Shown here piece by piece: positions 2,344-10,677 of a stretch of 11,571 bases of DNA. Within the stretch, counting starts at the first letter, position 1. Every line of letters starts with the position of its first letter. Origin of the DNA: a bacterium (lineage in GTDB: Bacteria > UBA9089 > CG2-30-40-21 > SBAY01); the NCBI GenBank assembly GCA_040757115.1, contig JBFLYA010000120.1, forward strand, positions 1 through 11,571, given 5' to 3'. The notes beneath the pieces were generated by a model, which saw only the letters and a program-made list of their open reading frames with translations, was not told the DNA's origin and searched no databases. The position numbers and the translations under genes are program-made.

Positions 2344-4907
2344 ATGAACCACAGTAAAGCATATCCATATTTAAAAGCAACCCTGGATGCATTGATTGAG
2401 GCGGCACCAGGTTGGGCAAAAGCTCCGGCTAAGTTCTGGTCCTCTTTATCCGAACAACTGAAGGATAAATCCAAAGAGAAAATCAAACAGTTAGAACAGG
2501 AGATAAAAGGGATTTCTAAAGATGATCTGGAGACAATGATCAAGGAGACTGGATGCGAGCAGAAGGAAGATATTGAGCTTATAATCGGAGCAGTGTCGTT
2601 AATCCCTGGACTTTGCCAGAAGATGGATTATCGGTTTGATAGAGTAGATAGTGTGCTTGAGGAAATGAGCGGGAAGCTGGATGAACTTTTGAGGAAACCA
2701 ACATCTGAAAAACCCCTCCAGTTCCCTCTTCCATCCAGCTTGCACAACCAAACCCCGCCTGAGCCGAATTTTGTGGGTAGGGTTGAAATGCTTAAGGCAA
2801 TCACAGATTGGTATAAATCCCTTGAGGTAAAGATTGGGGCATTAGTCGGCTGGGGTGGGGTGGGAAAATCGGCATTAGTCAGAAAGTGGTTTGATAGCTT
2901 GAAAGAAAATAACATCCAGCCTGATGGCATATTCTGGTGGGGATTCTATCGCAATGCCTTTCTTGAGCGTTTCCTTGAGGCGCTATTTGGTTATCTCTCC
3001 CAGGATAGATTTAAGCTTGATGACTACAAGACCTCCTGGCAGAAGATAGACAAAATAAAAGAGCTTCTTTTGGGAAGGGAATATCTCATTATCTTAGATG
3101 GACTTGAAGAGATGCAGAAATCACAAACAGGCGAAGAATTTGGTAAGCTGCAACATTCAGAGTTCACAGACTTACTCAAATACATTGCTGATGCAGATTT
3201 TAAAGGCTTATGCCTGATAACCACAAGGTTCCCTTTAACTGACATTGAGAAATACCCAAGCTATCAAAGGCTTGAGATAGAGGAGTTACTAAGAGAGGAT
3301 ACCCGGCTACTGTTTCAAAAGATTGGTGTAAGAGGAAAAGAAGATGAGATAGATACATCTGGGAAGAATTTAAAGGCCATACCCTAAGCCTTGTCCTCTT
3401 AGCAAATTATTTAGGCACGGGGGGTGATATTAAGAGAGCAAAGGAAATACCGCCATTCTATTCTGACCAAGAGGCAGGTGGAAAGGCACATAGAATCCTC
3501 CTCTGGTATGATAAGCAATTAAATGAAGAACAAAGAGACTTTATGAAGATATTCTCTTTATTTAGAGGTGCTGTCTCGGAAAGGGAGTTTAGGGAGGTAT
3601 TCCAAACCAGGGTAGATTTCCATTTCCAGAGAATGGTAGATAACCTTTGCCAAAGAAGGCTCATTACCAAAGGCTCTGATAATACCTACACCACCCATCC
3701 CTTAATCAAGGGCTACTTTGAGTCTATATTTGATAAAAAAGAAAAGAAGCTAACCCATAAGGCAATCTATGAATACTTTGGAAAGATAGCAAAAGATAAA
3801 CCAGAGACCTTAGAAGAGATGCAGCCTTTGTTTGAGCAGGTGCATCATGGATGTTCTGCCAGGCTTTATGATGAGGTGTGGAAGGATGTTTATCGGGATA
3901 AAATTGGAGGGTATCCATGCGGATATAAACTCCAACATAAGCTTGGTGCCTGGGAGACCGACCTATCCCTTGCCAGAACCTTCTTCCCGGATGGTAACCT
4001 TTCACAGATGCCGCAGGTAAGTGAGAAGAGCGACCAGGGCTGGTTGCTCAATGAAGCAGGACTGGCACTTCTTTCTACAGGACGGCCAAAAGAGGCAGAA
4101 GAACCATTGAAAACAGCAATCGGGTTATATGTTGAAGACAAAGAACTTGCTTATGCCTCTGCAGGTTATCAAAACTTGGCTAACCTTCAGTTTCGAGTAG
4201 GTAGGCTCAAGGAGGCAGATGAGAGTGCAAAAAAGGCACATGATGTAGCAGAGAAGGCAGGGTCTGAGAAGAATATCCGCAATTCAAAAGCCTATCTTGC
4301 CTGGATACTTCATCTTGCGGGCAAGGATGAGGAGGCAGAAAAGGGGTTTCAGCAGGCAGATGAGCTTCAAAGAAAGATCAGTGGGGATCGGTTTTACAGT
4401 ATAACTGGAGTTTTCTATGCTGACTTCCTCCTCTCAATCAAGCAGATTGATGAGGCTTTTGAACTTACCAAAGCAAACCTTGAGATCTGCCAGAGGAATA
4501 ATTTTGTAAACAGCATCTCCCGCTGTCACCGCTGCTTAGCTGCCATTGAAAGGCTAAAGGGAAACCAGAAGGAAGCCAAGGCCCATCTTCAGCAGGCCCT
4601 TGAGATTGCCAGAAAGGTTGGTATGCCTTATCTTGAAATAGAAGCCTTGCTTGAGTTGAGCAGGTTGTGGTTGGATATGAAGAAATATAAAGAGGCTATC
4701 TCTCAGGCAAACCAGGTCCTGAAGCTATGTGAAAGAACAGGCTTTTTACTCTACGAACCCGAGGCAGAGCTAATCTTAGCCAGGGCATATTTATCCCAGG
4801 GAAACCTACAGGAAGCAAAACCCCTTGCCCAATCATCTTACGAAAAAGCCAAAACTATGGGTTATTATTGGCCACAAAAGGAGGCAGAAAGGATTTTTAA
4901 AAAATGA
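2344..4907 (+). CDS. STAND (NB-ARC-like) ATPase with C-terminal TPRs, frame change near 3345-3387
   Basis: Start ATG 2344, with GGAGGAG at 2325-2331 (12 nt away), 33 bp after the NTase gene. Residues 1-130 are helical and coiled-coil-like with no recognised effector domain. The ATPase follows: 'PPEPNFVGR' entry motif, Walker A GWGGVGKS (169-176), Walker B LIILD (248-252), and TTR (293-295). The initial frame stops at TAA 3385-3387. The frame one base back is open from 3348 to TGA 4905-4907 and continues the same domain without a gap (EFKGHTLSLVLLANYL, the conserved GHxLxL segment). It then gives a winged-helix-like region and about six or seven TPRs (about 4036-4890). One missing base, or -1 slippage, would restore a protein of about 854 residues. 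STAND ATPases with repeat sensors commonly act as signal-responsive switches, including in phage defence. It may be a real gene with an assembly error, a recent mutation, or programmed frameshifting. Confidence 0.85.
3369..3375 (+). other. Possible -1 slippery heptamer T TTA AAG
   Basis: In the initial STAND frame the codons read TTA AAG preceded by T, matching the X XXY YYZ pattern. Slippage by -1 would give TTT AAA and continue into KGHTLSLVLL. It lies 10 bp before the in-frame TAA. Only a weak 5-bp stem (CTAAG 3384-3388 with a downstream CTTAG) follows, so a stimulatory structure is poorly supported. Confidence 0.3.
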
Positions 4908-5472: not shown

Positions 5473-5708
5473 ACCACGAAGGACACGAAGGGCACGAAGT
5501 GAAATTTGACACATTATCAAATAAACTCATTGTAGAACTCAAAAGTGTTGAGAGAACATTATCTATTCATGAAGCTCAAATATTGACATATATGAAGTTA
5601 GCAAATATCAAAGTTGGTCTATTGATAAATTTCAATGTAGAAAGATTGAAAGAAAACATAAAAAGATTTGTCTTGTCCAATCTTCGTGACCTTCGTGCTC
5701 TTCGTGGT
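5473..5708. mobile_element. GxxExxY element A: inverted CACGAAG arms around a truncated nuclease gene
   Basis: The left arm (5473-5499) starts ACCACGAAGGACACGAAG. The right arm (5682-5708) is its reverse complement with 24 of 27 matches. The three mismatches fall in the 3-nt linkers between ACGAAG repeats. Immediately outside the right arm is GAATAGTTACAAAA, resembling GAACGGTTACAGAA at the right end of the second element. Cargo is the broken GxxExxY gene. Confidence 0.65.
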
Positions 5709-5714
5709 GAATAG
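5499..5714 (+). pseudogene. GxxExxY / PD-(D/E)XK nuclease-like gene, 5' half deleted
   Basis: The frame is open from a GTG at 5499 to TAG at 5712-5714, with no ribosome-binding site. The sequence matches the C-terminal half of the second copy in this window: LIVELKSVE followed by SIHEAQ and VGLLINFNVERL, ending IKRFVL. The N-terminal half, including the GxxExxY motif that names the family, is missing. The break lies just before the catalytic-type Asp (FD, then ELK), exactly where the left CACGAAG arm begins. The last dozen codons (LRDLRALRGE) are translated from the right arm. This looks like a deletion derivative of a small nuclease-fold gene and is probably non-functional. Confidence 0.7.
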
Positions 5715-5858
5715 TTACAAAAGAAAGTAGATGATATTCTAAATTCAATATTCAGGTTTGCCCCCAATACTTCACTCGGTTGGTCCTTTTGAGGACAAAA
5801 ACAACTTTTTCGTTATCCTGTGAGATAGATTAGTGGTAGAACGGAATCTGAGCTCGGT

Positions 5859-9214: not shown

Positions 9215-9451
9215 GTAAGCGTTCAGGTGGTGTAACAAAAGGAGATGTGGAGATTAAGGAGATAGGGAGATATTATTAAAAAAATTGAAATTAATAGAAA
9301 CTAATAGAAATTTATGGAAATTTGTTGTTTTCCACAATCAATTTCTACCTATTTCTATAAATTTCAATCTATTTCTATTATCTTATCTCCATATCACTCT
9401 TATCTCCTTATCCCCTTTCTTACACTTTTGATATATAGCCTGAACGGTTAC
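9215..9451. mobile_element. Cargo-less 237-bp nested palindrome with GTAACCGTTCAGG-type ends
   Basis: Terminal inverted repeats are GTAAGCGTTCAGG (9215-9227) and CCTGAACGGTTAC (9439-9451), 12 of 13 matching. Inside are two further layers. One is GGAGAT-type tandem motifs (9241-9272) mirrored by ATCTCC-type motifs (9383-9415). The other is AATAGAAAY-type motifs (9282-9323) mirrored by TTTCTAT-type motifs (9337-9380), around a short central loop. No open frame is present. The whole could fold into one long hairpin, as expected of a MITE-like element. Its right end stops about 7 bp before the recO ribosome-binding site. Confidence 0.7.
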
Positions 9452-9469: not shown

Positions 9470-10267
9470 ATGCCATTATATGCCACTAAAGGGATAGTCT
9501 TGCGAAATCAAGACTTAGGTGAAGCGGATAAAATAATTACCTTGTTCACTGAAAAATTTGGGAAATTAAAGGGAGTGGCTAAAGGTGTCCGCAAAACAAC
9601 CAGTAAATTTGGGAGTAGTGTTGAGATTTTTACCTGCGCTGATTACCTGCTTTATGGAAAAGAAGGTAAAGACCTTGATATTATTACCCAGGCACAGATT
9701 ATTCAATCATTTAAGGAAATCCGCGAGGATTTGAGTAAAATTACAACTGGCTCTTTTATTATTGAGTTGGTAGATACATTAGTGGCAGGCAGAGAAAAAG
9801 ACCCATTATTATTTTCCCTTATCTTACAAACACTTACCTGGCTAAAAGACGAACAAAATGAGATGATAATACCTGCTTTTACCTTAAAAATAATGACCCT
9901 TGCAGGATTAAAACCACACTTTGGCGAAACTTGCGTTTTATGCCATAACTTAATTAATAATGATAAATTACAATTCAGCTCAAGTCAAGGAGGGGTAATT
10001 TGTTCTGGACATCAGATTAAAGATGGGATAATGCTAACAGGTAGTCTTAACAGTCTAATAAATCAATTACTTAAATTGGATATTTCCCGTCTAAAAAAGA
10101 TTCAAGTGGCTAAAAATTTATTATCCACAATCACAGAGTTAATGTTTGATTATCTTAACTATCATCTTCACAAACCACTCAAGTCTATGAATACAATGAA
10201 ATTAGGTAACCGTTCAGGTAGTCCTTTACCGCAGAGACGCAGAGGAACAGAGAAGATATGGAAATAA
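9470..10267 (+). CDS. recO: DNA repair protein RecO
   Basis: 265 residues. RecO loads RecA on SSB-coated single-stranded DNA together with RecR (RecFOR pathway) and anneals complementary strands. The N-terminal OB-fold starts typically (GIVLRNQDLGEADKIITLFT, 8-27) and continues with GKLKGVAKGVRK (31-42). The helical C-terminal part carries a zinc-binding cluster, CVLC (155-158) and CSGH (178-181), with His replacing the usual fourth Cys. AGGA at 9459-9462 is 7 nt before the ATG. The family-like sequence ends near residue 240 (YHLHKPLKSM). The last residues (RSGSPLPQRRRGTEKIWK) are read from the terminal repeat and CAGAG arm of the downstream element, so insertion has replaced the native end and stop. 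Activity is probably preserved, since the tail lies outside the conserved core. Confidence 0.92.
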   Translation: MPLYATKGIVLRNQDLGEADKIITLFTEKFGKLKGVAKGVRKTTSKFGSSVEIFTCADYLLYGKEGKDLDIITQAQIIQSFKEIREDLSKITTGSFIIELVDTLVAGREKDPLLFSLILQTLTWLKDEQNEMIIPAFTLKIMTLAGLKPHFGETCVLCHNLINNDKLQFSSSQGGVICSGHQIKDGIMLTGSLNSLINQLLKLDISRLKKIQVAKNLLSTITELMFDYLNYHLHKPLKSMNTMKLGNRSGSPLPQRRRGTEKIWK

Positions 10268-10677
10268 ATTAGATAACAGAAAAGATTATTGGTGCAGCCA
10301 TTGAAATACATAAAACATTGGGAGCAGGTTTGTTGGAATCTGCCTATGAAGAATGTTTATGTTATGAGTTATCAATATTAGGGTTACATTTTAAAAGGCA
10401 GGTTGAATTACCTGTAAGATACAAAGGAGTTAGATTAGATTGTGGCTATCGGTTAGATCTTTTTGTTGAAGAAGAAGTTGTTGTAGAATTAAAAACTGTG
10501 GAGCAATTACTTCCAATTCATGAGGCATAGCTTTTAACCTACTTAAAAATGATAAATAAAAGGGTAGGTTTGTTGATCAATTTTAATGTTCCTGTCCTCA
10601 GGGATGGGATTAAGCGTATCGTCCATAAATTTTAATTTTCTTCTCTGCGTCTCTGTGTCTCTGCGGTGAACGGTTAC
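10206..10677. mobile_element. GxxExxY element B: GTAACCGTTCA ends, inverted CAGAG arms, nuclease gene
   Basis: Outer ends GTAACCGTTCA (10206-10216) and TGAACGGTTAC (10667-10677) match perfectly as inverted repeats. Just inside are arms beginning ACCGCAGAGACGCAGAG (10228-10256) and their reverse complement (10639-10667), 25 of 29 matching. The cargo is one GxxExxY gene filling nearly all the space. The outer ends are the same motif as in the palindrome before recO. Mobility is inferred; no target-site duplication could be recognised. Confidence 0.7.
10258..10635 (+). pseudogene. GxxExxY family PD-(D/E)XK nuclease-like protein with two in-frame amber codons
   Basis: Reading from ATG 10258 to TAA 10633-10635 gives about 125 codons, the normal family size. 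Two TAG codons interrupt it: codon 5 (10270-10272) and codon 91 (10528-10530). Everything else is family-like: [20 protein letters not shown] (6-25), the naming motif GLLESAY (24-30), YRLDLFV with D67, then VELK with E77 and K79, forming a PD-(D/E)XK-type triad. After the second TAG the frame continues LLTYLKM and VGLLINFNVPVLRDGIKR. The second TAG replaces the Gln seen at the same place in the first copy (HEAQ), a single CAG-to-TAG change. The start overlaps the extended recO end by 10 bp. It is most simply a recently inactivated gene; the family's biological role is not established. Confidence 0.8.

Follow-up and report, generated by a model that had tools for sequence, protein, structure and literature searches.

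Does the GxxExxY gene at 10206-10677, which is enclosed by inverted repeats, belong to a mobile element, and if so, what moves this element and what are its repeats for? An earlier note on this DNA had proposed a mobile or selfish element with nested inverted arms that resemble the outcome of self-templated end-copying. We analyzed the window, i.e. the whole stretch of 11,571 nucleotides, which makes up the entire contig C120 of an assembly of 4.3 Mb. A profile search of that assembly gave 78 matches to PF13366, fragments for the most part. The elements in the window are as follows:

10206 to 10677, plus strand: whole MITE-type element with the GxxExxY gene; a genome of the same genus (G005) matches its start and stop at identical bases
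10206 to 10218, plus strand: outer terminal inverted repeat GTAACCGTTCAGG, IS66/ISBst12-like
10665 to 10677, minus strand: outer terminal inverted repeat GTAACCGTTCACC
10230 to 10252, plus strand: left inner arm with CGCAGAG at 10230-10236, CGCAGAG at 10238-10244 and a degenerate ACAGAG at 10247-10252
10643 to 10665, minus strand: right inner arm with CGCAGAG at 10659-10665, CACAGAG at 10651-10657 and CGCAGAG at 10643-10649
10258 to 10635, plus strand: GxxExxY pseudogene (PD-(D/E)XK, PF13366/TIGR04256) with two in-frame TAG stops
5475 to 5499, plus strand: left arm of a second copy, CACGAAG three times with a 9-nt period
5682 to 5706, minus strand: right arm of the second copy, CACGAAG three times
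5499 to 5714, plus strand: remnant GxxExxY ORF, C-terminal half only, resembling the CACGAAG subclade (KFDELS...)
5706 to 5718, minus strand: surviving outer end GTAACTATTCACC of the second copy
9215 to 9451, strand not assigned: element without a gene, the third in the window, with outer ends of this type; exact 8-bp target duplications (TSDs) are found at further copies of its family

The element at 10206-10677 is situated a short way downstream of recO and consists of two layers, outer MITE-type ends (GTAACCGTTCA...) and an inner GxxExxY gene between heptamer arrays. The nesting that had been described is due to a second layer, an IS66-like outer terminus. The arms of the first copy (10218-10256 and 10639-10677) are 79% complementary over 39 nt and those of the second (5473-5499 and 5682-5708) 89% over 27 nt, with local-alignment scores of 23 and 21; in 2000 dinucleotide shuffles per pair of arms, neither score was reached once. 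When arms were paired across the two gene copies, the scores were only 8 and 11, which bears out that each copy lies in inverted arms matched only within its own element. The motifs ACGAAG and CAGAG, reported in the earlier note as different, do differ between the copies but are related, as CGCAGAG and CACGAAG both fall under a single heptamer, CRCNRAG, with three units per arm, one of which is degenerate in the left arm of the first copy. No left partner was found for the outer end GTAACTATTCACC of the second copy (5475-5718), and the score of the arms of the gene-less element at 9215-9451 was matched by none of 2000 dinucleotide shuffles.

With the TAG codons read through, the gene at 10258-10635 scores 157.5 bits against TIGR04256 (cut-off 35) and 152.6 bits against PF13366 (cut-off 22), and the remnant at 5499-5714 reaches 60/62 bits against PF13366/TIGR04256. 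Having two in-frame stops, the gene at 10258-10635 is dead and its protein can no longer be made; intact relatives occur elsewhere in this genome (L001, L002) and also in G005. Two GxxExxY copies of this genome (L003 and L005) have their first in-frame TAG in common, and therefore an already broken copy seems to have multiplied. Elsewhere in the window, positions 1-720 hold an array of ATTTTCAGGAGAAACGGTCATG...GAGGATGAAAAT units that take turns with palindromic inserts unrelated to them (GTAGGAG, GACTCGGG and CGCAGATT words), and this unit appears to be inserted or expanded between the genome and G005 (L087/L296, L261/L295). At 1332-2310 a small ORF overlaps a PF12281 nucleotidyltransferase (NTP_transf_8) in a toxin-antitoxin-like pair, and an NB-ARC/NACHT-type ATPase and TPR region at 2344-4907 is distributed over two frames (2344-3387 and 3543-4907), which looks like a single STAND protein split by a frameshift.

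Evidence for movement comes from the outer layer. GTAA...TTAC end pairs were counted over stretches of the genome and of G005, and an exact 8-bp direct repeat is present at 76 of 182 pairs, each other length from 3 to 12 being found at 0-6 pairs and none of 200 swapped control pairs matching. A comparison of G005 (L297) with this genome (L260) provides an orthologous empty site for a deleted GxxExxY element (TSD TAATGAAG), and such sites between the two genomes were also found for four-helix elements at L060 (TSD ACTTTTCT), L069 (TSD GTGAAATG) and others. The 10206-10677 family is represented in G005 by a single copy of full length, at 95%, some ten copies without part of the 5' half and at least 25 copies with an internal deletion and the same terminal bases; truncated and deleted copies with fixed ends are what MITE-like derivatives should look like. 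The GTAA...TTAC outer ends enclose several different inner sequences. The copy in the window has lost its own duplication and is without an intact TSD. The proposal of a mobile element is thus supported by the duplications and the empty sites, and 10206-10677 is a copy of a MITE-type DNA transposon with GTAAC...GTTAC ends whose family moves with an 8-bp target duplication. Presumably, this family is mobilized in trans by an IS66/ISBst12-type transposase. Its ends and duplication resemble those of ISDge4 (IS66 family, ISBst12 group), which terminates in GTAACTGCTCAGCA and has a repeat of 8 bp (PMC12898284). As the IS66 transposase in this genome is a relic, namely one domain with stops between GTAACCGTTCAGG ends on contig C277, without a TSD, and four fragments more, we infer the supplier of the transposase. 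Some GxxExxY cassettes of the genus (L004, L007, L009, L010 and L021) are enclosed by another outer repeat, CGACCTGTGAAATAGG / ACCTGTGCAATCA, which is apparently a second MITE-type end.

The inner layer is much more general. Matched inverted arms at a score of 18 are found in this genome in 14 of 19 near-complete GxxExxY genes and, with the same threshold, in 15 of 18 four-helix-bundle genes, compared with 3 of 236 control ORFs; the swapped-arm control within this genome is inflated by near-identical copies. One scan of named genomes yielded a clade-I set of 80 GxxExxY loci from about 18 phyla, with methanogenic archaea, Cyanobacteriota, Planctomycetota, Chloroflexota and Pseudomonadota among the hosts. 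Tandem CRCNRAG units, two or more and correctly oriented, occur on both sides in 55 of these 80 loci and on one side or both in 74, compared with 43 of 2738 control strand-windows (1.6%) from clade-I contigs, the pattern being derived from these 80 loci and used identically on the controls. In a motif-free alignment test, 52 of the 80 loci had a score of at least 18, versus 7.7% of swapped pairs. The typical arm has three units that are 8-11 nt apart and preceded by TTNAC. Most GxxExxY genes are therefore armed and ordinary genes are not, in line with the earlier note, although an architecture specific to GxxExxY turned out to be too narrow, since the unrelated four-helix-bundle family shares it. 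General insertion into pre-existing hairpin loops was rejected, as complementarity is at background about 6 nt beyond the arms. Among 72,556 plasmid records only 8 contain GxxExxY, no GxxExxY was found in 50,697 phage records, and queries of clades II (CRCRRAT) and III (GGAGAWA) had no matches in viral contigs. The openly accessible journal papers searched gave no description of the armed GxxExxY architecture, nor were the arm strings printed there in that context. Armed GxxExxY cassettes are apparently a widespread and undescribed class of mobile gene cassettes.

These cassettes are located between genes in several operons. A reading of the flanking translations places cassettes at the trpD/trpC junction (L191, L192, L197). 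The radA/FAD gene junction holds a cassette in Bacteroides finegoldii and the fabD/fabG junction one in Sphingomonas, whereas the Parabacteroides relative and S. paeninsulae, respectively, are empty and without arms. Empty sites exist also beyond the genus, and arms and gene come or go together as one unit. Long neighbours close by on both sides were available for 45 loci; in 29 of them both neighbours run in the direction of the cassette (+,+) and in 2 both are antisense (-,-), as counted from rough ORF predictions in which some genes of high-GC DNA are misplaced; on annotated plasmids, the neighbours are co-directional in all six GxxExxY regions. Outer ends of the GTAAC type were not seen in the inspected flanks of the cross-phyla cassettes, and neither a TSD above the swapped control nor any other transposition mark was detected at these GxxExxY cassettes. 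The mobility of GxxExxY cassettes across phyla therefore rests on lower-identity empty sites, scattered hosts and the four-helix example. At one locus in two species (L036 and L268), G005 has a full GxxExxY gene and this genome has CGCAAAG arms plus a few bases of the gene end, which is a gene loss with the arms kept. The ACGAATT-arm locus L012 contains in G005 (L370, contig C323) three inverted arm pairs in series, one of them empty, and an aspartic-protease-like gene lies between two of these arm pairs.

The four-helix-bundle (S23/IVP) genes are unrelated to GxxExxY but show the same armed architecture and the same preference for junctions, including cas6/cas4 and cmr2/cmr3. For a four-helix cassette on a Trichormus plasmid, 98-99% identical relatives on Nostoc plasmids lack gene and arms together, and the filled site has a 5-nt repeat, GTAAT. 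At the cmr2/cmr3 junction (L355, L357, L364), Picosynechococcus PCC 7003 has a four-helix cassette, PCC 7002 has nothing and Synechocystis PCC 7338 has a Uma2-family endonuclease gene, i.e. one junction with different insertions. Anabaena sp. 90 contains at cas6/cas4 (L351, L365) a four-helix cassette whose GGTGACAGGGAACA arm is greatly expanded, and in the same place a 99% identical Dolichospermum flank has an unrelated hairpin element (GTAGGTTGGGTT...AACCCAACCTAC). Two further four-helix-bundle cassettes (L051 and L056, with GGGACTC and GCAGAGA arms) have copies of a CRISPR-like repeat, CCTGATGAATAAGGGATTGCGAC, on either side.

What do the arms follow? Within an element, the words agree at 2.49 of 3 variable positions versus 1.74 in GC-matched swaps, and the spacing agrees between arms in 95% versus 53%. 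Read from outside to inside, the spacing orders [1,2], [2,3] and [3,4,3] recur and [2,1] was never observed. A unit-by-unit agreement between the arms was not detected (p=0.28), nor did G.U outnumber A.C where the arms are mismatched (17 versus 17). A match in word and spacing without unit order or G.U bias fits arrays of protein-binding words better than a paired stem or the copying of arms. On a tree of 126 proteins, the word classes (CRCNRAG, CRCRRAT, ACAGGAT, CRCGAAA and GGAGAWA) require 5 changes compared with a shuffled mean of 19.6 and minimum of 17, and the host phylum requires 41. The expected correlation of arm motif with gene clade is thus present, and it is much clearer here than in a Mantel test of protein distance against word (r 0.13, p 0.04; p 0.06 after GC). 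Within clade I every variable letter and the period cluster on the tree, values this low being reached in no more than 2 of 500 shuffles. The CACGAAG spelling is confined to one subclade that spans phyla and to which the second copy of the window is similar; the two motifs of the window therefore reflect two subclades. This linkage of clade and word could be due to joint inheritance of adjacent DNA together with any constraint on the arms.

The predicted structure of the protein (pLDDT 95.5) is a PD-(D/E)XK nuclease fold. Its closest structure is the Cas4 protein SSO0001 (Z 9.4), followed by restriction enzymes and Hjc with Z of about 7, a value that may reflect the shared fold alone. Residues E24, Y27, D64, K76 and Q88 are among the invariant ones and E74 is nearly invariant (at least 90%). 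A search of solved structures with the protein sequence gave no match, and PADLOC gave a weak Cas4 match only. We regard the arms as putative sites to which the encoded PD-(D/E)XK nuclease would bind, and a predicted action of the nuclease on the arms is plausible.

Taken together, 10206-10677 is a MITE-type copy of two layers, in which the outer ends carry a GxxExxY cassette that is probably a minimal mobile or homing element, with arrays that would be recognized by the encoded nuclease. The family moves by its outer GTAAC...GTTAC ends, presumably with an IS66/ISBst12-type transposase acting in trans, and the cargo is a PD-(D/E)XK gene flanked by inverted arrays of about three clade-specific heptamers. 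Bound to these putative recognition sites, the nuclease might cut or process the cassette ends or empty target arrays. Internal deletions give rise to gene-less arm pairs. Another reading is that arms and gene are old repeats captured by the MITE-type ends and that the nuclease plays no part in movement. The outer ends do explain the movement here, they are common to several different inner sequences and the window copy is a pseudogene; nevertheless, we consider this passive role unlikely, as the same arms occur across about 18 phyla with no such outer ends in the inspected flanks and the word class is conserved with the protein clade. The opposite extension is possible, but on balance doubtful: GxxExxY cassettes would be new minimal autonomous mobile elements of bacteria and archaea, in which a 125-residue PD-(D/E)XK nuclease recognizes its own inverted heptamer arrays and drives the spread into operon junctions, with four-helix (S23/IVP) cassettes as an independent second family of the same plan.

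The arms have also been considered in roles other than nuclease recognition. They might pair in the mRNA, so that RNase III excises the cassette from operon transcripts as in S23-encoding 23S rRNA intervening sequences; in Coxiella, a 28-bp stem around the S23p ORF is processed by RNase III (PMC4990558). The sense orientation within operons and the same architecture around S23/IVP-family genes are in line with this, but the lack of unit-by-unit covariation, the balance of G.U and A.C and an Rfam search of the window without a match make it quite improbable. Operators or expression signals for autoregulation of the nuclease gene, which would then spread by ordinary horizontal transfer, would account for a left array close upstream of the start codon and a word that follows the protein clade. 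We regard this as very improbable, since an equal inverted array follows the stop codon, the inserted unit has the arrays at its borders, and gene-less arm pairs persist and multiply. Fold-back synthesis, in which one arm is copied from the other as the earlier note had suggested, is disfavoured and hardly credible: word and spacing do agree within an element, and the arms of L175 and L156 are nearly identical over their length, but the units are not matched one by one, the spacing orders [1,2], [2,3] or [3,4,3] recur whereas [2,1] never occurs, and the word, like the period, goes with the position in the protein tree in different phyla, the word class not being arbitrary per element. Nuclease-read arrays carried by MITE-type ends remain our preferred reading.

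Annotations as a GxxExxY or four-helix-bundle (S23/IVP) protein are frequent and come without a function; these proteins are recast here as cargo or drivers of one kind of armed cassette. These cassettes enter trp, fab, radA and cas operons and leave the neighbouring genes undestroyed, and they may account for tandem words (CACAGAG, CGCAGAG, CACGAAG...) across environmental genomes. Those 23S_rRNA_IVP genes that have been listed as CRISPR-associated may be passengers, and the S23 genes within rRNA intervening sequences, long a puzzle, are connected with a larger class.

The gene of the window matches the GxxExxY family (TIGR04256 / PF13366) over its full length, although no element architecture was found published for this family. 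23S_rRNA_IVP genes in cas loci have been counted among CRISPR-associated functions (PMC3936711), and our four-helix genes between cmr2 and cmr3 and beside cas6/cas4 resemble them, here with arms; in contrast to that assignment, the empty sites suggest inserted cassettes. The TAACTGA repeats of Beggiatoaceae (PMC4679880) are likewise short tandem heptamers and mostly intergenic, but almost all are direct (one inverted set in 170) and the bracketing of a gene is not described. REPIN / RAYT systems (PMC3116915) also combine short inverted repeats, many gene-less copies and a nuclease gene, which is separate there, whereas here it lies inside the arms, is of the PD-(D/E)XK type and the repeat is a heptamer array. 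23S rRNA intervening sequences with S23p (PMC4990558) share the small ORF between complementary arms and the sporadic distribution, and the four-helix family has the same architecture; however, our cassettes lie between protein genes and not in rRNA, 10206-10677 encodes GxxExxY instead of S23p downstream of recO in a window without an Rfam match, and the arms are heptamer arrays without pairing-type covariation. Closest to the outer layer are the IS66 family (ISBst12 group) and its derived MITEs, with ends starting with GTAAC, an 8-bp target duplication and internally deleted multicopy derivatives, while the element described here has no transposase inside and carries GxxExxY (or four-helix) genes within a second, inner pair of arms.
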